The notes beneath the pieces are model-generated. The model worked only from the letters and a program-made list of their open reading frames with translations, was not told where the DNA came from and did no database searches. A stretch of DNA of 64,000 nt, from the NCBI RefSeq assembly GCF_001465345.1, contig NZ_CP013655.1, forward strand, positions 1-64,000. The letters run 5' to 3'. The stretch is from Enterococcus rotai (GTDB taxonomy: Bacteria > Bacillota > Bacilli > Lactobacillales > Enterococcaceae). A program made the translations under genes and the position numbers. Positions 541 to 9,457 of this stretch are shown here, in pieces. Within the stretch, counting starts at the first letter, position 1, and each line of letters starts with the position of its first letter.

Positions 541-3500
541 TCAGGGCGTATCCCCGAGTTGCCAAAGAATTGTAGCTTCATATTCGCCCAATTTTCTGAC
601 GCTTCCTGCAGGAACTTCTAACTGAAAGCCCGTTTCACCAGTTTGCCACTGTTCACTAACATCGTATGAACCGGATTTGCTATGAGTATGCGTAGTGATT
701 GCGAAAGCCGTATTGACTTCTAAGGATTCAACAACAGATGAATTCTTTCTAAATTGAATAGCTCCCGGCAAAATTTTAGTTGTATCTGCTTTATTTGTTA
801 ATGGCTGTTGTAAAGTGGCCGTTAGTGTCCAGCTTTTTAATTGAGCCCGATTGTCCCAAACAATAAATGGCGCTTCGTAAGTTGCTTTTTCAACTTTAAT
901 GGGAAAAATTCCTACGTTACTCGTGCCAAAATCCACCGTGTTTGGTGCAGATTCAATCGATAATGTTCCATAAAACTTATATTGTACGCTGGTTCCATTT
1001 GGGTTTATTAAAACAGCTTTTTCATCTACTGGTCGCTCATTTATTTGATATTTCTGTTGTAAAATCGAGTCTATACTATCAAGTATGCTTTGCTCTTTGG
1101 TTAAATCTACCGTCTCACCAATCAATTCTTCCATAGATATGGCCGGTATAATTTCTTCGCCGATTTCGTTAACAAAAGAAATCGTAAGGCTCGCAAACTT
1201 GTTAATGACAGTAAACGTGACTTGTTTTTTCTCATCTTCTAAACCACCAACATTTTCTTTTGGCACCATTAATGTGATTACATAAGTTCCAGCTTTTGAT
1301 GTTGAGGTTAGTCCGCCCATATCTGACACCACAATATTCTCTGTTAAATCAATAATTAAGCCATCTGCTATTTTATTTGCGGAAGCATTGCTGTTTTTTA
1401 GAATATAAGCTTCTATTTCTTCGCTTGTCATTTCAGGTAAAATATCCGTACCAATAGACAAATCTTCTCCGTTAAACTGGAATCCTGTTTCATGAACAAT
1501 CAGCATAGAGGTAATAGTTGTTTTGTTTTTTGCTTCATCAAACAGATCCACTTTTACCGTGTATGTTCCAGCTGTGGCTAGCATCTGCTCTATAGTAGAA
1601 ACTGGATTTTCTTCCGAAAAAGCATACGTAAAGTCTTGTTTCAGCGGATTGCTATCGGTTGGGTTTTGAACAAAGCTTTGTGGATCTGGAACAGCTGCCC
1701 CCTTTACGCTATGATAATCTTTCCCTTCTCCAATTGGTGGTGTTGCATCTATCACTGTTTGATACACAGAATCTCTATTGCCAGATAAATAAGCAAAAAC
1801 CTTTATTTTTGTCCCAGCAGAGAAATGTTTATTGCTGGGTAAAGTATAGGAATATTTTCCAGTTGCATCAGCTTTAATTGTATAATTACTCGATATATCC
1901 GAATTCTCTGAATCAGGAATTGGACTTACAATTGTATTATCCTTTGGATCAAATACAGTAGCAACTGCGTCAGTTACCGGTGTATCAGATAAACGAATGT
2001 AGGCACCTGGATCTGCAGTCCCTGAAACCGTTGTTGAGCTTATTGATGTAACATCATCTGTTGCTTTACTTGAAATTGTCACTAATGGGTTACGAATATT
2101 TAGCTTTACACTCGCCGTGTGATAGGATTTATCACTCCATGTTAACGTTGCTTTTGTATTATTTAGATATTTACTAAGATCCACTGGAAATGTCCAAGAG
2201 TCTTTTGAATCTGCTACATTGACTGTATACTTATCAGAACCTATCGTTAGGGTTAGAATTCCTGAATCTGAGTAGTCTGGTTCAAGTTCATTCGCAATGA
2301 AATAATCAATTTGTCCTGAAAATTCTTTTTTATTATTGAAGAGTTGGTATTCGTTATTTATCAAAGCTATATCAGGATCTAAACTAATTCCTGGAATAAA
2401 AATATTATTACTCCAGCGACTGCTACTATTAAGATTAAAAACAGATGTTGTGAAAGTTGCATCAGAAGAATTCGCTACAGTTAAACCACTCTCAGTAAGA
2501 TTATTCACCGTAAAATCTAAAGACTTCCAGTACTTATTTGGATTCCCTATCCCTTTTTGCGTATTTAACCATAAGCCAGTATTTGAGTTTTTGTGGTAAA
2601 TATTACTACTCCCACCAGCACCATATACATAAAAAAAACGTCCATTATTCCCAAGAAAAATAAAATCATACAATTTTGGGTTGTCAATATTAATATCCAT
2701 TTTGTAAGTATAAATCACCCCAAATGAAGCATTTGGACTAGAGACTTCGACTCGTGTATTTGAACCGGTATTCAAGTACATCTGGGTATTTGTTGTTCCT
2801 CCATTTTGTGAAGCAATACTTCTGAAGGCTGGTGCCATGTTTGTCTTAATATCTAATGTTCCATCTATCTTTATTGTTCGGTAGTTGGCAACAACATTTC
2901 CATACGTATCTGTCGCTGCAGAAGTAGCCATAACTGTTGCATTTTTTTGAACCCAAAAGATACGTTCATCCATCCGACTGTTAATACCCGTAATAGGGGG
3001 CTGGATTCCTTGAAAACCTAATGCAAAATTTACTGCTCCAGCGCCATCTGCCATAGCTCCAGCGCCGCCTATATAACTAGTACTACTATTGACTAGCGCA
3101 TTATCTGGATCATTGCTATCATTGGGATTCCCATAAGCAGTAATATTACTAGCTCTAATTCCCTGATAAACCACATTGATGTCAACCTTTCCTTTCATAA
3201 GAACCCCTTTTGAAAAATAAGTATTCAAAAAGCTGCCTTCTGATTGGACATTTAAGTCTTGTAGCGTCACAATAAGATTCACATTTTGACCATCAGTTGC
3301 TAACTGATTTTGACTGTTGGGCGCACCATCATAAATCAATCCACCAGCCCAGCCGTTATTGTAGTTGAATTTGCTATACAGTTTTCCTGTTCTTTCAGGA
3401 GAACTATCGTACAGTTTAAATTCAGTAAAGTCTTGGTATCCTTTTAAAATGATTCCTCCGTTATTTCCATCTCCGGTTGCTAAAAAATTTAATTGGAATC

Positions 3501-3744
3501 CATTCAAGTCAATTCTTTTATTAGTAGAAACAACTAAATTAGTGCCAATTGTCACGTCTAAATCATTCGCTAAGTAGTAATCTGTATTTGTTTTAGAGGT
3601 CATTGCTTGGTTAAAATCTGTTTGGTTAACAATCGGTATGCCGCTTGCCTCTTTTTCACTGGCTACAGCAACTTTACTGAAAAACACTAAAATAAAAAAT
3701 ACAAATAACCCTACAATTACTAGCATCTCTGTTTTTTTAATCAT
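541..3744 (-). CDS. Large WxL-domain cell-surface protein (1067 aa)
   Basis: A secreted surface protein with an N-terminal hydrophobic signal segment (residues about 6-29). The first 450 residues are Asn/Thr/Gly-rich with repeated short strands, as in parallel beta-helix or adhesin-like folds. A bacterial Ig-like segment follows (near TTVSGTADPGAYIRLSDTPV), then Ig-like modules, a MucBP-like stretch (ASLTISFVNEIGEE) and finally a WxL domain. Both hallmark motifs are visible: SWTLTATL about 100 residues from the end and ILWQLGDTP at the very C-terminus. There is no LPXTG sorting signal, so attachment should be non-covalent. The start is supported by GGTGAGG just upstream of the ATG. It sits between the small WxL gene and a winged-helix regulator on the same strand, with a gap of under 100 bp to the regulator. 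The ligand is unknown; adhesion or polymer binding would be inference. Confidence 0.85.
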   Translation of the reverse strand: MIKKTEMLVIVGLFVFFILVFFSKVAVASEKEASGIPIVNQTDFNQAMTSKTNTDYYLANDLDVTIGTNLVVSTNKRIDLNGFQLNFLATGDGNNGGIILKGYQDFTEFKLYDSSPERTGKLYSKFNYNNGWAGGLIYDGAPNSQNQLATDGQNVNLIVTLQDLNVQSEGSFLNTYFSKGVLMKGKVDINVVYQGIRASNITAYGNPNDSNDPDNALVNSSTSYIGGAGAMADGAGAVNFALGFQGIQPPITGINSRMDERIFWVQKNATVMATSAATDTYGNVVANYRTIKIDGTLDIKTNMAPAFRSIASQNGGTTNTQMYLNTGSNTRVEVSSPNASFGVIYTYKMDINIDNPKLYDFIFLGNNGRFFYVYGAGGSSNIYHKNSNTGLWLNTQKGIGNPNKYWKSLDFTVNNLTESGLTVANSSDATFTTSVFNLNSSSRWSNNIFIPGISLDPDIALINNEYQLFNNKKEFSGQIDYFIANELEPDYSDSGILTLTIGSDKYTVNVADSKDSWTFPVDLSKYLNNTKATLTWSDKSYHTASVKLNIRNPLVTISSKATDDVTSISSTTVSGTADPGAYIRLSDTPVTDAVATVFDPKDNTIVSPIPDSENSDISSNYTIKADATGKYSYTLPSNKHFSAGTKIKVFAYLSGNRDSVYQTVIDATPPIGEGKDYHSVKGAAVPDPQSFVQNPTDSNPLKQDFTYAFSEENPVSTIEQMLATAGTYTVKVDLFDEAKNKTTITSMLIVHETGFQFNGEDLSIGTDILPEMTSEEIEAYILKNSNASANKIADGLIIDLTENIVVSDMGGLTSTSKAGTYVITLMVPKENVGGLEDEKKQVTFTVINKFASLTISFVNEIGEEIIPAISMEELIGETVDLTKEQSILDSIDSILQQKYQINERPVDEKAVLINPNGTSVQYKFYGTLSIESAPNTVDFGTSNVGIFPIKVEKATYEAPFIVWDNRAQLKSWTLTATLQQPLTNKADTTKILPGAIQFRKNSSVVESLEVNTAFAITTHTHSKSGSYDVSEQWQTGETGFQLEVPAGSVRKLGEYEATILWQLGDTP

Positions 3745-3832: not shown

Positions 3833-4546
3833 TCAGGTAGATATTTCGTCAACTGATACTTCAATAAAATTTTCCTTGGCAAATATATATCCATTTGAAC
3901 GAACTGTTTTTATTAATTGAGGATGCTTACTATCTTCCTCAATTTTTTCTCTTAAATGAAAAACTAAATTATTTACTCGATAAAATTTTTGTGGGCTTAT
4001 GACATCCCATATGTATTTACTGATTTGCTCATAGGATAAAGCTCGATTTTCATTCTTGGTAAATAATTCCATTAATTTATATTCTAATCGGGTTAAAGAA
4101 ATCTCTTCCCCTTTTTCAGACTTAAAGGTTCTATTTTCTTTTATTAAACAACAGATAGACTCTCTTTCTTTTTCTGCGTTATTACTCTTAATCGCGGTTA
4201 CTCGATTTAATAACTTATTCAATTGAACAGCTAGTTCCTCTGTATCAGTTGATTTAGAAAAAATTATATCTACTCCCAGTTTAAAATATGCTATTCTTAT
4301 TGCGGGTGAAGAAATGGATGTTATTAAAATAATCAGAGAATTTGAAATTTTTCTGATCATCATAAGTTCTTCAAAAATACTTTCTTTACTTTCATTATCT
4401 TCAATGATAAATGCATCAATTCTTTTTTTTCTTTTTTCTTCATCAAATTTTTTCACAATATCTAGATGAATATCCTGTGATAACAATTCTCTACATAAAT
4501 TACTATTTAATAATCCATTACTCTTCAATATTTTAACGTTGAACAT
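3833..4546 (-). CDS. Atypical OmpR-type winged-helix regulator with degenerate receiver domain
   Basis: A 237-residue protein with a C-terminal trans-activation (PhoB/OmpR) winged helix at about residues 130-225 (ISLTRLEYKLMELF, then RVNNLVFHLREKIEED and IKTVRSNGYIF). The N-terminal 110 residues resemble a receiver fold, but the acidic pair near the N-terminus is missing and the phospho-acceptor position in DAFIIEDN aligns with Glu rather than Asp. Phosphorylation by a kinase is therefore doubtful, and no kinase gene is adjacent. The start has an AGGAGG 12 nt upstream. It reads in the same direction as the two WxL genes immediately downstream, so it is their most likely local regulator (inference). 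It also lies directly outside the left recombination site of the putative invertible recombinase segment, so its transcription may depend on the orientation of that segment. Confidence 0.8.
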   Translation of the reverse strand: MFNVKILKSNGLLNSNLCRELLSQDIHLDIVKKFDEEKRKKRIDAFIIEDNESKESIFEELMMIRKISNSLIILITSISSPAIRIAYFKLGVDIIFSKSTDTEELAVQLNKLLNRVTAIKSNNAEKERESICCLIKENRTFKSEKGEEISLTRLEYKLMELFTKNENRALSYEQISKYIWDVISPQKFYRVNNLVFHLREKIEEDSKHPQLIKTVRSNGYIFAKENFIEVSVDEIST

Positions 4547-4629
4547 GATGATATACTTCCTCCTGTATTATAGTTTGTTTTTTTTGCATTATTGTCATTT
4601 TAAATTTATAATCAAATTTGAAGACACTA

Positions 4630-4658
4630 ATATCTAGAATCAACTAAATTCTAGATAT
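4630..4658. repeat. Left inverted recombination-like site flanking the recombinase gene
   Basis: This 29-bp sequence is the exact reverse complement of 6092-6120. Internally it is palindromic: arms ATATCTAGAAT and ATTCTAGATAT surround the 7-bp asymmetric core CAACTAA (4642-4648). On this side the palindrome extends to 15 bp per arm (4627-4641 and 4649-4663). Short palindromic arms around a 6-8 bp core is the organisation of tyrosine recombinase crossover sites. The two cores are in opposite orientation, which predicts inversion rather than excision. Confidence 0.75.
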
Positions 4659-4739
4659 TAGTTATTTAATCCTTTAATACTAATGATTTTCAGCTTATTA
4701 TTGACCATCACTGTGACGGCGAAAATTTTTTTTATGTGA

Positions 4740-5849
4740 TTACACTTTTAACTGTTGATCTAATTGATCCAGTGCGATTTCTTGATTTTCCCATGATGAA
4801 TTTGTGTAAACATCTAATGTCATTTTTGTAGAAGTGTGTCCTAATATCTTACTTAAAGATGTAATATCGACACCTTTTTCGACACATCTAGTCGCAAAAG
4901 TATGTCTCAAAGAGTGAAAGGTCGTTTCATCTATTTGCGCCTGTGCAAGATGCTTTTTAAAGCGGTATGTGATAATTCTAGGCTCTGTGAAACTGTTGCG
5001 ACAACAAATTACGTACTCACTTGTAGCATTCGATTGCTTTTCGGATAAATATTTTTTTAAGTTTTTTGATAGAGGAATATTACGTTCACTACTTTTCGTC
5101 TTAGGTTTGTCAATATGAATTCTCGTTTTTTGCTGTTTGTCATCAACGGCTATTCTTGAAACGGTTCGTCTTACATGAATAATATTTTTTTTAAAGTCGA
5201 TATCTTGCCATTGAAGACCACTGATTTCACCAATTCTCATACCTGTATATAATGCAATGATTTCAGCAGAACATTCTTTTTTCTTTAAAACTATGACTTC
5301 TAATTTTCTTTGCTCATCTCTACTTAAACTTTCAATGTTCTTTTTCTTAAAACTTGGTATACTAACATTTCCTGTTGGGTTTCTTAGTAGATGATTGTCG
5401 TCCACTGCGCGGCTAAGTGAACTATGTAAAATAGACATAATACTTTTGATAGTACTTGAAGATAAATCTGACTGCTTCAACTTGGTAACAAAGTAACTGA
5501 TGTCGCTTGATTTGATATCTTTCATCTTTTGGTTTTTGAAATGTGGAAATATGTAGCTTGTCATTCTCTTCTTATAGATAGAGTAAGTAGATAATTTTAT
5601 ATTTTCTTTCAATAATATATCTAGCCAATAGGTCATCCAAGCTTGTAAGGTTCCAGAATACACGTCTAATGTATCATCTAAAAAAGGGTAATTTGATTGT
5701 TGAACAGTCATCTTTTTCTTTACATCATTGTATTTATGTCCATAAACATAACCATAAATAATATTGCCATTTGGGGTTCTTCCTTTTTTATATCTTCCTT
5801 CCCAGCGGCCATCTTTTCTTTTATAAATGTTTTCTCCTCTTTTCGGCAT
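4740..5849 (-). CDS. Tyrosine recombinase / phage-type integrase
   Basis: A 369-residue tyrosine recombinase of the Tn916-Int-like group. The chosen start (MPKRGENIYKRKDGRWEGRY) has AAAGGAG 7 nt upstream; an ATG five codons earlier overlaps that ribosome site. An N-terminal arm-binding-like segment (residues about 1-50) is followed by a SAM-like core-binding domain (about 65-160) and a catalytic domain with the expected residues: Arg in TGMRIGEISGLQW, His-x-x-Arg in HSLRHTFATRC, a second His in LGHTSTKMT and the nucleophile Tyr in DVYTNSS. All catalytic residues are present, so the enzyme should be active. No excisionase, relaxase or phage gene is next to it. Instead the gene is tightly enclosed by two 29-bp inverted sites (4630-4658 and 6092-6120), suggesting a site-specific invertase that flips its own gene and adjacent regulatory DNA. 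A solitary degraded mobile element is the alternative. Confidence 0.93.
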   Translation of the reverse strand: MPKRGENIYKRKDGRWEGRYKKGRTPNGNIIYGYVYGHKYNDVKKKMTVQQSNYPFLDDTLDVYSGTLQAWMTYWLDILLKENIKLSTYSIYKKRMTSYIFPHFKNQKMKDIKSSDISYFVTKLKQSDLSSSTIKSIMSILHSSLSRAVDDNHLLRNPTGNVSIPSFKKKNIESLSRDEQRKLEVIVLKKKECSAEIIALYTGMRIGEISGLQWQDIDFKKNIIHVRRTVSRIAVDDKQQKTRIHIDKPKTKSSERNIPLSKNLKKYLSEKQSNATSEYVICCRNSFTEPRIITYRFKKHLAQAQIDETTFHSLRHTFATRCVEKGVDITSLSKILGHTSTKMTLDVYTNSSWENQEIALDQLDQQLKV

Positions 5850-5911
5850 AGAAGCTCCTTTCATTTCTACAAAGTGATTTTGACGATTTTACGACGGCTA
5901 TTAATAACAAA

Positions 5912-6058
5912 TTATGACTCTCTAACTTCTTCCAATCGTAATTCGGCTATTTCGCTCATTGCTTCTTCGGAAAAAATCCATTTCCCTTTAATATATTTCT
6001 TTTTTTTATGTATTTTTTCTAATTCAACATATAGACTTTTATATTTTTTTAATGTAAA
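5912..6058 (-). pseudogene. Possible remnant of a small gene upstream of the recombinase
   Basis: On the minus strand an open frame of about 48 codons ends in a stop at 5912-5914, about 60 bp before the recombinase start. Its translation is highly charged (for example KYIKGKWIFSEEAMSEIAEL), which looks like the end of a small DNA-binding or excisionase-type protein, but there is no ATG, GTG or TTG start with a ribosome site; an in-frame stop limits it upstream. It lies inside the putative invertible segment. This may be a truncated gene or chance; I do not recognise the family. Confidence 0.25.
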
Positions 6059-6091
6059 CTACTTTTGTGAGCAAAATAATTTATTTTTTTC

Positions 6092-6120
6092 TATCTAGAA
6101 TTTAGTTGATTCTAGATATT
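6092..6120. repeat. Right inverted recombination-like site flanking the recombinase gene
   Basis: Exact reverse complement of 4630-4658. Palindromic arms of 10 bp (6092-6101 TATCTAGAAT and 6109-6118 ATTCTAGATA) flank the core TTAGTTG (6102-6108), which is the inverse of the left core. Identity stops abruptly on both sides, as expected for a site-specific recombination target rather than a general duplication. Confidence 0.75.
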
Positions 6121-6345
6121 TTTTTGCCCAAATAACAATATATAGACAAAAAAATAATTTAATGTTCTTTCTTTTTCATCTTATTTTATTTTTTTCTATG
6201 TAAATCATGTTATCATGTTCTTGTTTTGATTTGTTCATCAAAAAAAAGAGCCATTATCCTTTTTTCATCGAATAATGAATCCTTTTTTTTGCTTTTTGAG
6301 TTTATTTGTTATAAATTAGGATAACTAAACTTGGGAGGTGTTTTT

Positions 6346-7788
6346 ATGGAAGGTTTACTAAGTTCGAGTGAGAGAAAAGAATTACAACTATTTCAACTCA
6401 CTATACAGTCCGATGATTTTGTCTCAATCAATCAATTAAAAGAATTACTACATTCTTCTATAAGTAATGTTTGGCGGATCGTTAATAAGTTAGCTGAAAC
6501 TTACCCAAATTACGTAGAGCTTATTAAGCATAAGCAATTGGGTATTAAATTTGTTGAACTTGATCCTTCGCAAGATACATACCTTTTAATTAGAAGTGAT
6601 TATCTCAAAAGAAATATGAATTTTATTTTACTAGATGCCCTTTTTCATGAGGAATTTGATTCTGTTCAAGAATTTTGTGAGACTTATTATATCTCAGTAG
6701 GCGCTTTTTATAAGAAGAAAAAAGAGTTGGATACCATGCTTGAACAAAATAAACTTATTATTGATACTAAAAATTTTCGAATTTATTCTCACAATGATTT
6801 GTATGTTAGAGATTTTTTTTATTACGTTTATTGGGAAACATTTAAAACGGTGGAATGGCCATTTAAATTAATCGATAAACCAGAGTTGACTAGTGTTTTA
6901 TTTACATTTTTGAGCAACCATACTATTGAACTGAATACTTTAGAAAAAGAACAAGTACTTTATCGCTTTGCAATTATGTTTACAAGAGTGAGAAAAAGAC
7001 ATTTTTTCAACAAATCAATCTTAAATAAATTAATCCCACCTGAATTATCAGCTTTTTTGAGCAAGCTAAATGATTGGCTGATGAATTACATTCCTAAAGA
7101 ACAGATTGAGGATGAAGTTTTTTATTTATCATTTTTAATTATCTCTAATTATTCAAGCGCTTATATCAATTTACCGATATCAGAACACTATTTAGCTAGC
7201 TATTTTGGTTCCATTGACTCCATTGAGTGGCAGTTGACTATTAATTTTTTTGAGCAATTGAGAATTGTTTTTCCAGATCAACAATTGGAACTAGAGAATA
7301 ACGTTCATGAATTGGTTCACATAATGCACATCCACGTTTATTCTACCTTTTTTGACCATTCCTACATTCCCTCTTCTATTCCTCATTATTTAGAGGAAAT
7401 TTCGTCATTGAGTCAGGATGCTGCGATGAAGATAATTGAAACCATTGATTTAGCTAAGCATCCACAAAATACGAACTATTTAAAATACTACTATAGTTTA
7501 TTCATTGAAAGTTACTTCACTTTTAAAAAGGTAAATATTGCTTTAGACATGTCTTCAGATCGAATGTCAGCAAATCGAATAAAGAATAGATTACTAACTA
7601 TTTTCAAAGATAATATATCTTTTGTAGATCACTTAGACTGTGATAGTGAGTCAATCAACCTTGTGATTAGCGATACTTCGGTCTATTCAACTTCAAAAGT
7701 CTTCATTATTAAGCATCCATACTCTGAAAAAAGTTTCAAATTACTAAAAGACTATATTATGGAAGTTTTTTTTAAGTTAAATAAATAA
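6346..7788 (+). CDS. Mga-family helix-turn-helix transcriptional regulator
   Basis: A 480-residue protein matching the layout of Mga/AtxA-type virulence regulators: two N-terminal helix-turn-helix domains (first near FVSINQLKELLHSSISNVWRI, second near VQEFCETYYISVGAFYKKKK), two central PRD-like helical regions, and a C-terminal EIIB-like alpha/beta segment (SINLVISDTSVYSTSKVFII). Such proteins activate surface and virulence genes and are modulated by PTS phosphorylation in some species (family knowledge). The ATG at 6346 has GGGAGG just upstream; an in-frame TTG 15 nt earlier overlaps that site and is unlikely. It lies 226 bp to the right of the right inverted site and points away from the recombinase, so a promoter carried in the invertible segment could reach it. 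Two hairpin terminators follow. Confidence 0.85.
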   Translation: MEGLLSSSERKELQLFQLTIQSDDFVSINQLKELLHSSISNVWRIVNKLAETYPNYVELIKHKQLGIKFVELDPSQDTYLLIRSDYLKRNMNFILLDALFHEEFDSVQEFCETYYISVGAFYKKKKELDTMLEQNKLIIDTKNFRIYSHNDLYVRDFFYYVYWETFKTVEWPFKLIDKPELTSVLFTFLSNHTIELNTLEKEQVLYRFAIMFTRVRKRHFFNKSILNKLIPPELSAFLSKLNDWLMNYIPKEQIEDEVFYLSFLIISNYSSAYINLPISEHYLASYFGSIDSIEWQLTINFFEQLRIVFPDQQLELENNVHELVHIMHIHVYSTFFDHSYIPSSIPHYLEEISSLSQDAAMKIIETIDLAKHPQNTNYLKYYYSLFIESYFTFKKVNIALDMSSDRMSANRIKNRLLTIFKDNISFVDHLDCDSESINLVISDTSVYSTSKVFIIKHPYSEKSFKLLKDYIMEVFFKLNK

Positions 7789-7889: not shown

Positions 7890-7978
7890 ATTTCTAGACA
7901 GCCTATAGTATTTAGATTTAAACTAAAACAAGTTTTAAAATCAATATACTCACGAGTATGAAGAATGGAGTTGAGTTC

Positions 7979-9457
7979 ATGAAAGAGATTCTATCTACAA
8001 AATCTAAACGTCAACTAGAATTAATGGAACTTCTAATTGACAATGAGTGGGTTAGTTTTAACATTGCTTCAATACAGTTAAGCGCCCCGGTTAAAACAAT
8101 CAAAAGCGATTCTATGGAATTGAACACGATTTTTGCTCCTACTTCTATTGAAACCTCAAAAAAATACGGGATTCGATTGACAGTAGATCCTACATTTTCA
8201 AAAGCGATGATTTACCAAAAATTTTTAGTTAATAGCATTGAATTTCAATTAATCGAAAAAATTTTTTTACATAACTTTTCCACAATTAATGATTTAGCAG
8301 ATGATCTCTATACGAGTATTTCTACCATTAAACGCCTTGTTTCTAGAATAAATCAAACACTTCAATTAAGCGGTTTTGTAATTAACCTAAAAAAAATGCA
8401 ACTGGTTGGCGATGCTCATAGTATTTGTAATTTTATGGAATATTATTTTTGTGAAAAATATAGTGTATCAGAACGTTTACTGACACCTATACAATTAAAT
8501 GTATTGGACAAAATTATTATGCATATATCCAATCAAGTATCTACATATCAGTCTATTAATGATATCGGATTTTCATCACTCAACCAGATTCGTTTTTCTG
8601 TGTTTACAGCAATCAACTTATTGAACAATAATGATGAAAATGTAATTAGTATAGATAAAAATTATACAGTCCCCTTTGGAGATAAATCGACTATCTACTA
8701 TGAATTTTATCGTCAATTTGGTTTTGCCTTGTCTTCTTCTAATATAGATAAACTATTTTCCCTCTATTATAACGAAAACTTTGTCGCTTCTTACGATACA
8801 TTAAAAAAACTTATTACAAAAAATAGACATCATTACTTAAAATATGAGAAAATTATTATTCTTATACAGAATTTGGAAAAAAGAATTGACTCTCAATGTT
8901 TCAGCTTCGAGAAAGTAGTCTTAGATTTGTATAACATAGAGTTTCAAGTAACTGGTCGTACACATATTTTATACGATCGAAATAAAGAATTTTATAATAA
9001 CCTAAAAATCACTTACGGAAATTTTCCTGTGGAAATTACTGATTTTTTGAAAGCAATATTTTATAATAGTCCAAATAAAGATTGCCTAATTTATGAAGCT
9101 ATTTTTATCTTATTTTCTAAGTATCCTGAGTTCTTACTTTGTCTTGAGCAAGCTACCCCAACTATGAAAGCTTGTCTTTTACTTAATACTGGAAGCTCTT
9201 ATATGACCATGATTTCTAAACAAATCGCCTATTATTTAAAAGGACGGTTTAGCTGTACTCCTTTAAATATAACTTCTTTAGATGAATTAGAAAAATCTAT
9301 TAACACATATGATTGCGTTATTACTAATATTCCAGATATACAATTACCTAACCACCCAATTGTCGTTATCCCCCTAGTACCAGACGCGAAGAGCTTCGAT
9401 AAATTAATGTTTGTTTATGAAAAACATTTTAAATTATCACAAGATAAATTAAGTTAA
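7979..9457 (+). CDS. Second Mga-family transcriptional regulator
   Basis: A 492-residue paralogue-like Mga protein. An N-terminal HTH (KRQLELMELLIDNEWVSFNI) is followed by the family's second HTH (STINDLADDLYTSISTIKRL), PRD-like helical modules and a C-terminal EIIB-like fold (ACLLLNTGSSYMTMISKQIA, then YDCVITNI). The ATG at 7979 is preferred because GGAGTTGAG lies directly upstream; an earlier in-frame ATG at 7958 lacks a ribosome site. It has no obvious partner gene. Sequence similarity to the first Mga-like protein is low by eye, so this is not a recent duplication. Target genes are unknown; the WxL surface genes nearby are plausible (inference). Confidence 0.82.
   Translation: MKEILSTKSKRQLELMELLIDNEWVSFNIASIQLSAPVKTIKSDSMELNTIFAPTSIETSKKYGIRLTVDPTFSKAMIYQKFLVNSIEFQLIEKIFLHNFSTINDLADDLYTSISTIKRLVSRINQTLQLSGFVINLKKMQLVGDAHSICNFMEYYFCEKYSVSERLLTPIQLNVLDKIIMHISNQVSTYQSINDIGFSSLNQIRFSVFTAINLLNNNDENVISIDKNYTVPFGDKSTIYYEFYRQFGFALSSSNIDKLFSLYYNENFVASYDTLKKLITKNRHHYLKYEKIIILIQNLEKRIDSQCFSFEKVVLDLYNIEFQVTGRTHILYDRNKEFYNNLKITYGNFPVEITDFLKAIFYNSPNKDCLIYEAIFILFSKYPEFLLCLEQATPTMKACLLLNTGSSYMTMISKQIAYYLKGRFSCTPLNITSLDELEKSINTYDCVITNIPDIQLPNHPIVVIPLVPDAKSFDKLMFVYEKHFKLSQDKLS

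Follow-up and report, generated by a model that had tools for sequence, protein, structure and literature searches.

The first 64,000 nucleotides of Enterococcus rotai contig NZ_CP013655.1 (assembly GCF_001465345.1; this whole stretch is referred to below as the window) contain a 1.46-kb segment that is probably, at roughly three chances in four, a self-inverting promoter cassette. It would have been sequenced in the OFF state, and its inversion would turn on an adjoining regulator gene, here called Reg, together with a WxL surface-protein operon. In the proposed mechanism, a tyrosine recombinase would recombine two inverted core sites and so flip the 1.46-kb segment. The promoter would sit at the cassette's upstream end, divergent from the recombinase gene and reading out through the right site; in the present orientation it would point away from Reg, leaving Reg and the WxL operon OFF, and after inversion it would face Reg across a leader of some 135 nt, turning them ON. 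The recombinase gene would flip with the segment, and since the inner half-sites, arms and gene stay together, the reaction would be reversible.

The left crossover site (4629–4657, downstream of the recombinase) and the right crossover site (6092–6120, upstream of it), neither assigned to a strand, are reverse complements of each other over 29 nt without mismatch; the match ends exactly there, with no further base on either side. Each site is a palindrome round an asymmetric 7-nt core, CAACTAA on the left (core 4641–4647, palindrome 4626–4662) and TTAGTTG on the right (core 6102–6108). The sites are inverted and not directly repeated as the att sites of a mobile integrative element are. The sequence ATCTAGAAT-N7-ATTCTAGAT without mismatch was found at exactly two places in the whole 3,746,111-bp genome, both of them the window sites, and the backwards control gave 0. 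The original prediction of a recombinase enclosed by two perfect 29-bp inverted copies with opposed cores was therefore borne out, with the left copy at 4629–4657, shifted by one base from the coordinates first given.

The enclosed gene, on the minus strand, had been described as a full-length tyrosine recombinase at 4740–5849; the identification held, and the open reading frame is 4740–5864 (374 aa), the ATG at 5849 being an internal alternative that gives 369 aa. Its protein consists of an N-terminal GENIYKRKDGRWEGR segment, a SAM-like core-binding domain and a catalytic domain. Phage_integrase (1.5e-27) and SAM_3 were matched in Pfam, and no serine-recombinase model was among the Pfam families matched. 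Residues R205, H312, R315, H338 and Y348, which we take to be the catalytic residues of a tyrosine recombinase, are invariant in 14/14 aligned recombinases, and the GENIYKRKDGRWEGR segment is kept in the same 14 apart from one K/R change. The best matches among solved structures were the 'Int protein' chains 6emy, 6en0 and 6emz, presumably Tn1549 Int, with E values of 1e-28 to 6e-28 over profile positions 83–363 only. Single-sequence structure predictions were of low confidence for both the recombinase (pLDDT 34) and Reg (pLDDT 42).

Reg (3833–4546, minus strand) encodes a 237-aa regulator with an OmpR-type C-terminal DNA-binding domain (Trans_reg_C) and is the predicted direct target of the invertible promoter. 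Weak NCBIfam matches cover its receiver region, and Pfam gives the DNA-binding domain alone; Reg resembles a response regulator, and its N-terminal half may be a pseudo-receiver. Downstream of Reg is a 1,067-aa WxL surface protein (541–3744, minus strand), which Reg would be expected to activate. Two WxL genes had been proposed on this side; one was the 541–3744 gene, and the second is cut by the window edge and has no WxL profile match. Beyond the right site are a Mga-domain regulator (6331–7788, plus strand), which may be a second target in the present orientation, and a second Mga-domain regulator (7958–9457), to the right of the cassette and reading away from it; only the latter passed the cut-off of the AcpB/EbpR/MafR model. 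Reg and the WxL protein thus read leftward off the cassette and the two Mga-domain regulators rightward, and the domain matches agree with the earlier description of divergent transcription outside the sites, with a regulator and WxL genes on the left and two Mga-type regulators on the right. A second whole module, consisting of a Mga-type gene, a cassette, Reg and two WxL genes, is present in the same genome at C1:959000–975000 (L067). Its recombinase is a 73% paralogue of that in the window, with a homologous regulator in the position of the window Mga gene, and the module is apparently an old duplication of the window locus with diverged sites.

Recombinase relatives were collected by profile search of genomes of the genus (79 + 117 = 196 rows, fragments counted in). 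All 22 genomes searched, the E. rotai genome included, carry 6–13 relatives; E. rotai itself has nine copies, the nearest to the window recombinase being 73% identical. A family-level search was positive in 37/105 genomes and 4/17 genera, with at least 19 rows in the richest genome. Placement in the Enterococcaceae agrees with copies on named E. raffinosus, E. gilvus and E. faecalis plasmids and with ribosomal protein S7 of a congener, whose best match was chain 7nhk, presumably E. faecalis. The set used for counting comprised 181 loci (WIN, L067–L086 and L099–L258) with 187 full copies (match >900 bp) and two broken ones (L128 and L161, the latter close to an arm pair); these copies are related by descent, so that counts are not independent, and L255 and L256 are one locus entered twice in the totals. 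Two contigs of another assembly (L272 and L273; G019:C16 and C15) start a few hundred bases from a cassette recombinase, and assemblies may break at such switches.

Inverted repeats were searched for within 700 bp on each side of each copy, with a matching score of >=16 taken as enclosure. By this measure, 153/187 full copies are enclosed, compared with 15/600 in a control in which the left flank of one copy was matched to the right flank of another, so the enclosure in the window is not due to chance. A later set of five more congener copies had repeats in 5/5 (scores 20–25), and six copies from other genera scored 15–30, three of the six being at 15, just below the threshold. Of the 34 copies without flanking repeats at a score of >=16, 28 had no adjoining Reg. 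The sites follow a theme of approximately ATTTCTTGTTTTTnnTAAAAACAAGAAA that varies from locus to locus, and the window site is a far variant of it. Tyrosine recombination requires an identical overlap and tolerates differences in the arms. Among the 133 pairs with a clear palindrome, the 7-nt core was the same in both copies in 130 (random pairs, 1.1%) and the site arms were 87% identical within pairs; because the search for repeats was based on similarity and so favours identity along their whole length, and because the core falls in the middle of the repeat, some of this core/arm contrast may be derived from the search. Site similarity rises with recombinase similarity, and 0/500 permutations gave a value as high.

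Two pairs of CCGTCA repeats lie on the recombinase strand, one immediately before the start of the recombinase gene and the other after its stop codon, ahead of the downstream site. Where two exact upstream copies are present their spacing is 10–12 bp; among the 187 copies, two or more exact upstream CCGTCA were counted in 113, one in 43 and none in 31. No exact downstream CCGTCA was found in 17/153 cassettes, nor in 28 of the 34 copies without sites. Using a relaxed arm-pair pattern, both inner sides were matched in 116/153 cassettes and each outer flank in 0/153. The window matches this relaxed pattern on both sides with variants of the family repeat, as a putative arm-type pair at 5880–5897 (minus strand, immediately 5' of the recombinase start; a variant of CCGTCA-N5/6-CCGTCA) and another at 4701–4719 (minus strand, between the recombinase stop and the left site; a CCGTCA ... 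TGGTCAA variant). Mean recombinase identity is 0.66 in the N-terminal stretch, 0.35 in the core-binding stretch and 0.51 in the catalytic domain, and the higher conservation of the N-terminal stretch fits a shared arm sequence combined with private cores. The CCGTCA pairs inside the cassette would probably serve as arm sites for the recombinase N-terminal domain. No Pfam arm-binding match was obtained for any of the 14 recombinases; according to the portion of PMC8138268 cited here, arm-binding domains are tied to mobile-element integrases, and Pfam can miss such domains.

In 100/153 cassettes the interval from the upstream site to the recombinase carries an outward-facing promoter-like element, T-n-GAC-n-17-TAnnnT, on the strand opposite to the recombinase. 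The same pattern was found on the other strand in 3/153, and shuffled sequences gave a mean of 3.0 and a maximum of 6 over 20 rounds. Scanning the spacing of the TAGAC form gave a peak at 17 (47 cassettes), the next highest being 20 cassettes at a spacing of 12. After collapsing the recombinases at 60% identity into 29 clusters, the outward element was present in at least one member of 22/29, vs 1/29 on the other strand. It is absent from 53/153 cassettes, including the flipped L166, and present in the flipped L157 and in L256. In the window the element is TAGACT-17-TAAACT (6032–6060, plus strand), 31 bp inside the right site; it reads right now and after inversion would read left into Reg. 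On the Reg strand the same pattern was found in 0/153 cassettes between the recombinase and the downstream site, and likewise in 0/153 within the 200 bp past that site. At that end of the cassette, 11/153 have it on the opposite strand, where the reversed arm repeat supplies TTGAC. By this measure, Reg would lack such a promoter when the cassette lies the usual way round, and inversion would supply one. Scanning the window for sigma-70 promoters in general was uninformative (12 found vs 11.8 expected), and a search for a -10 box of the recombinase's own promoter gave no clear signal (30/148 in the bin 11–20 bp before the arm pair, other bins 3–40).

Recombinase and Reg share one direction in 133 of the 136 enclosed cassettes that adjoin Reg, and three are flipped. 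As the recombinase usually reads towards Reg, the divergent promoter would point away from it, and with the outward promoter-like element in 100/153 cassettes the usual orientation is predicted to be OFF for the regulator and WxL side. A WxL or LPXTG-type open reading frame lies downstream on the same strand in 108/153 cassettes, within the fetched flank.

Inversion has occurred in related cassettes. In genome G021, the same locus is present near both ends of one contig (C1; L255 and L256) with the cassette opposite ways round. The flanks of this pair are 99.96% identical, the 1,560-bp middle is inverted and the crossover falls within a 14-bp stretch spanning the core. The contig ends have an apparent 40-kb terminal redundancy, which when sampled at both ends was 99.8% and 100% identical over 6 kb each; the pair represents either a culture containing both forms, which is the simplest explanation, or a true duplication. 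Between species, the cassette of L157 is inverted relative to L070 and L250, and that of L166 relative to L104, L127 and L211, in each case with collinear flanks. Both orientations were therefore found for L255/L256, L157 and L166, and the window copy is known in one orientation. The original prediction had been that the window segment inverts; the anatomy, the 3/136 flipped sister cassettes and the two forms in G021 agree with it, the inverted form of the window copy itself was not seen, and the orientation comparison among related genomes that had been proposed gave alternative orientations at these loci. The 133:3 skew could mean that inversion is rare. As the arms, the gene and the inner half-sites invert together, the recombinase would meet almost the same substrate in either state, and we infer that selection, low recombinase activity or feedback by Reg is a more likely source of the skew than the DNA substrate.

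One group of recombinase copies without sites adjoins a conserved GTPase gene, which we take to be YchF-like. In this group, some 6–7 kb upstream, arm repeats and exact 19–25-bp inverted repeats bound a segment of 0.55–0.8 kb, and these repeats were found in 13/13 loci examined (of 16 fetched). The E. rotai genome has such a 0.78-kb segment (L286:1190–2948; C1:1186442–1188200) with exact inverted repeats and two arm pairs, located between a gene assumed to be ParB-like and a Reg gene, and presumably served by the non-enclosed recombinase at C1:1193430. The outward promoter pattern was found between the repeats in the expected direction in 1/13 of these loci (L287). From its layout, the group appears to be a switch with no recombinase inside, the promoter and arms having been separated from the gene.

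Other explanations of the window locus were weighed against a self-inverting promoter cassette. It had been suggested that read-through from the recombinase might act as the switch, its transcript continuing into Reg and the WxL genes in the present orientation, which would then be ON, and running away from them when flipped. This is quite improbable. The shared direction of recombinase and Reg in 133/136 would fit, as would the 82-bp interval from stop codon to site in the window, where no clear terminator was found, a lack common to all 27 cassettes of shortest recombinase–site spacing, the window included. However, an intrinsic terminator lies between the recombinase and the site in 56/153 cassettes (shuffles, 0.4), which rules out recombinase read-through as the general mechanism; the conserved promoter-like element is directed the opposite way, and the non-enclosed group keeps an invertible-looking segment with no recombinase gene in it. 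The read-through proposal is accordingly not supported, given the terminators and the outward element on the opposite strand. The same prediction held that the cassette could toggle read-through or an outward promoter between two regulators; in the promoter form of this reading, the outward promoter would now drive the Mga-type regulator at 6331 and would drive Reg and the WxL genes when flipped, alternating two surface programmes. As a general design this did not hold, since upstream neighbours vary in kind and direction across the family. At the window itself it is possible, if unlikely: the element at 6032–6060 faces the Mga gene, the hairpin before that gene is weak and not convincing (z -1.05), and in L067, the 73% paralogue, a homologous regulator occupies the same place, but in the corresponding stretch of L067 a strong hairpin followed by a T run precedes that regulator.

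The cassette might instead be a small mobile element, an integrase between inverted repeats that spread by hopping to many positions and plays no part in switching. The family is multi-copy, its recombinase is related to the integrases of phages and of Tn916/Tn1549-like elements, and there are copies on plasmids. Such copies occur on megaplasmids of E. raffinosus and E. gilvus and on a plasmid of E. faecalis; their inverted repeats score 18, 17 and 22, and arm repeats are present as well. The E. faecalis plasmid (LR962555.1, L089), whose cassette has inverted repeats and arm pairs and a large open reading frame downstream, is typed as mobilizable. Against such an element, 136/153 enclosed copies adjoin Reg, which is not random placement, sites change along with the recombinase, and inversion was seen in related cassettes. 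Moreover, inversely oriented sites in site-specific recombination lead to inversion and not excision, so that the sites found here would invert the segment and not release it. We regard this explanation as scarcely credible. Nor is it at all likely that inversion has ceased, with the sites and arms persisting as conserved relics or as transcription terminators. The nearly uniform orientation (133 to 3) would suit this, and the RNA of the window site would form a hairpin (-11.3 kcal/mol); set against it, one assembly holds both orientations, most recombinase copies among the matches listed have no internal stop and core identity within pairs is retained (130/133).

Beyond the genus, scanning named genomes with the window recombinase gave 14 distant relatives, most of them from Clostridia. 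In 10/10 of those with a match of >=600 bp, neither flanking repeats nor arm repeats were found, the absence being weak for those near a contig edge (L005, 23 bp upstream). Recombinase matches were also found on Vescimonas and Ruminococcus plasmid sequences and in 83 phage records, the phage matches listed being 26–36% identical; the site survey covered the Enterococcaceae copies and the 10 distant relatives. On the E. raffinosus plasmid NZ_CP081847.1 (L087), the target side of the cassette consists of a Reg gene followed by secA2/asp accessory-Sec genes, so the targets are not only WxL operons. For the family as a whole, we lean towards a reading in which arm-binding tyrosine recombinases have turned from integrases into self-inverting promoter cassettes, about ten per genome, that with shared arms and private cores would form independent, non-cross-reacting ON/OFF switches over surface-protein operons.

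In the Salmonella Hin system, the invertible segment contains a promoter that is directed outwards across one site and switches surface genes. The cassette is like Hin and its H segment in enclosing the recombinase gene and in having a candidate promoter that reads out through one site. Unlike Hin, which is a serine invertase, it has a tyrosine recombinase and arm-like repeats, and a genome holds many such cassettes, most of them upstream of a dedicated regulator and every one with a site of its own. In the fim switch of Escherichia coli and the RecV switches of Clostridioides difficile, the recombinase gene lies outside the flipped piece. The cassette shares with them a tyrosine recombinase, short inverted repeats, an invertible control segment and a surface-structure target, and differs in its enclosed recombinase with a conserved N-terminal extension and a private site. 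In the passages of PMC5903667 relied on here, Hin is given as an example of a recombinase within the invertible segment, and RecV is described as serving several switches. The pneumococcal PsrA is likewise a Gram-positive tyrosine recombinase encoded in the locus being inverted, psrA being one of the four genes of the hsdS inverton in the sections used of PMC4948785 and of a 2025 paper (PMC12324116). There, hsdS coding segments are swapped at 15-, 85- and 298-bp repeats with no promoter flipped, and those sections describe no multi-locus family with private sites (PMC4948785, PMC12324116). The IntTn916 subgroup, as presented in the cited part of PMC8138268, has an arm-binding domain and arm sites, which the N-terminal extension and the near-site repeat pairs of the cassettes resemble; the N-terminal domain of the cassette recombinase has no family match. 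Tn916/Tn1549 integrases move elements; the cassettes, with their inverted sites, are found at regulator loci.

A survey of gut invertons, in the text available from it, makes no mention of Enterococcus and reports that, one possible exception apart, invertons do not generally control the recombinases near them (PMC11892184). Among the matches listed from the open-access literature, no title or abstract described an enterococcal inverting tyrosine-recombinase cassette, and phase variation of enterococcal surface proteins or WxL proteins by DNA inversion was not found; an earlier description in a subscription journal is possible. This agrees with the statement accompanying the original prediction that no enterococcal system of this design was known. 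One paper on hsdS gene inversions (PMC7394358) reportedly names Enterococcus.

The cassette design, its multiplicity and the rule of private sites were unexpected. The combination of shared arms and diverged cores makes the family well suited to testing how core specificity changes among tyrosine recombinases, and the approximately 150 recombinase/site pairs would, if the reading is true, be a natural library and a possible source for genome engineering. For the genus, it would mean that 22/22 genomes searched carry several heritable switches, mostly beside operons for WxL or other surface proteins. Such switches would be mostly OFF in sequenced isolates, and genomes and transcriptomes of single isolates would therefore miss the ON state.
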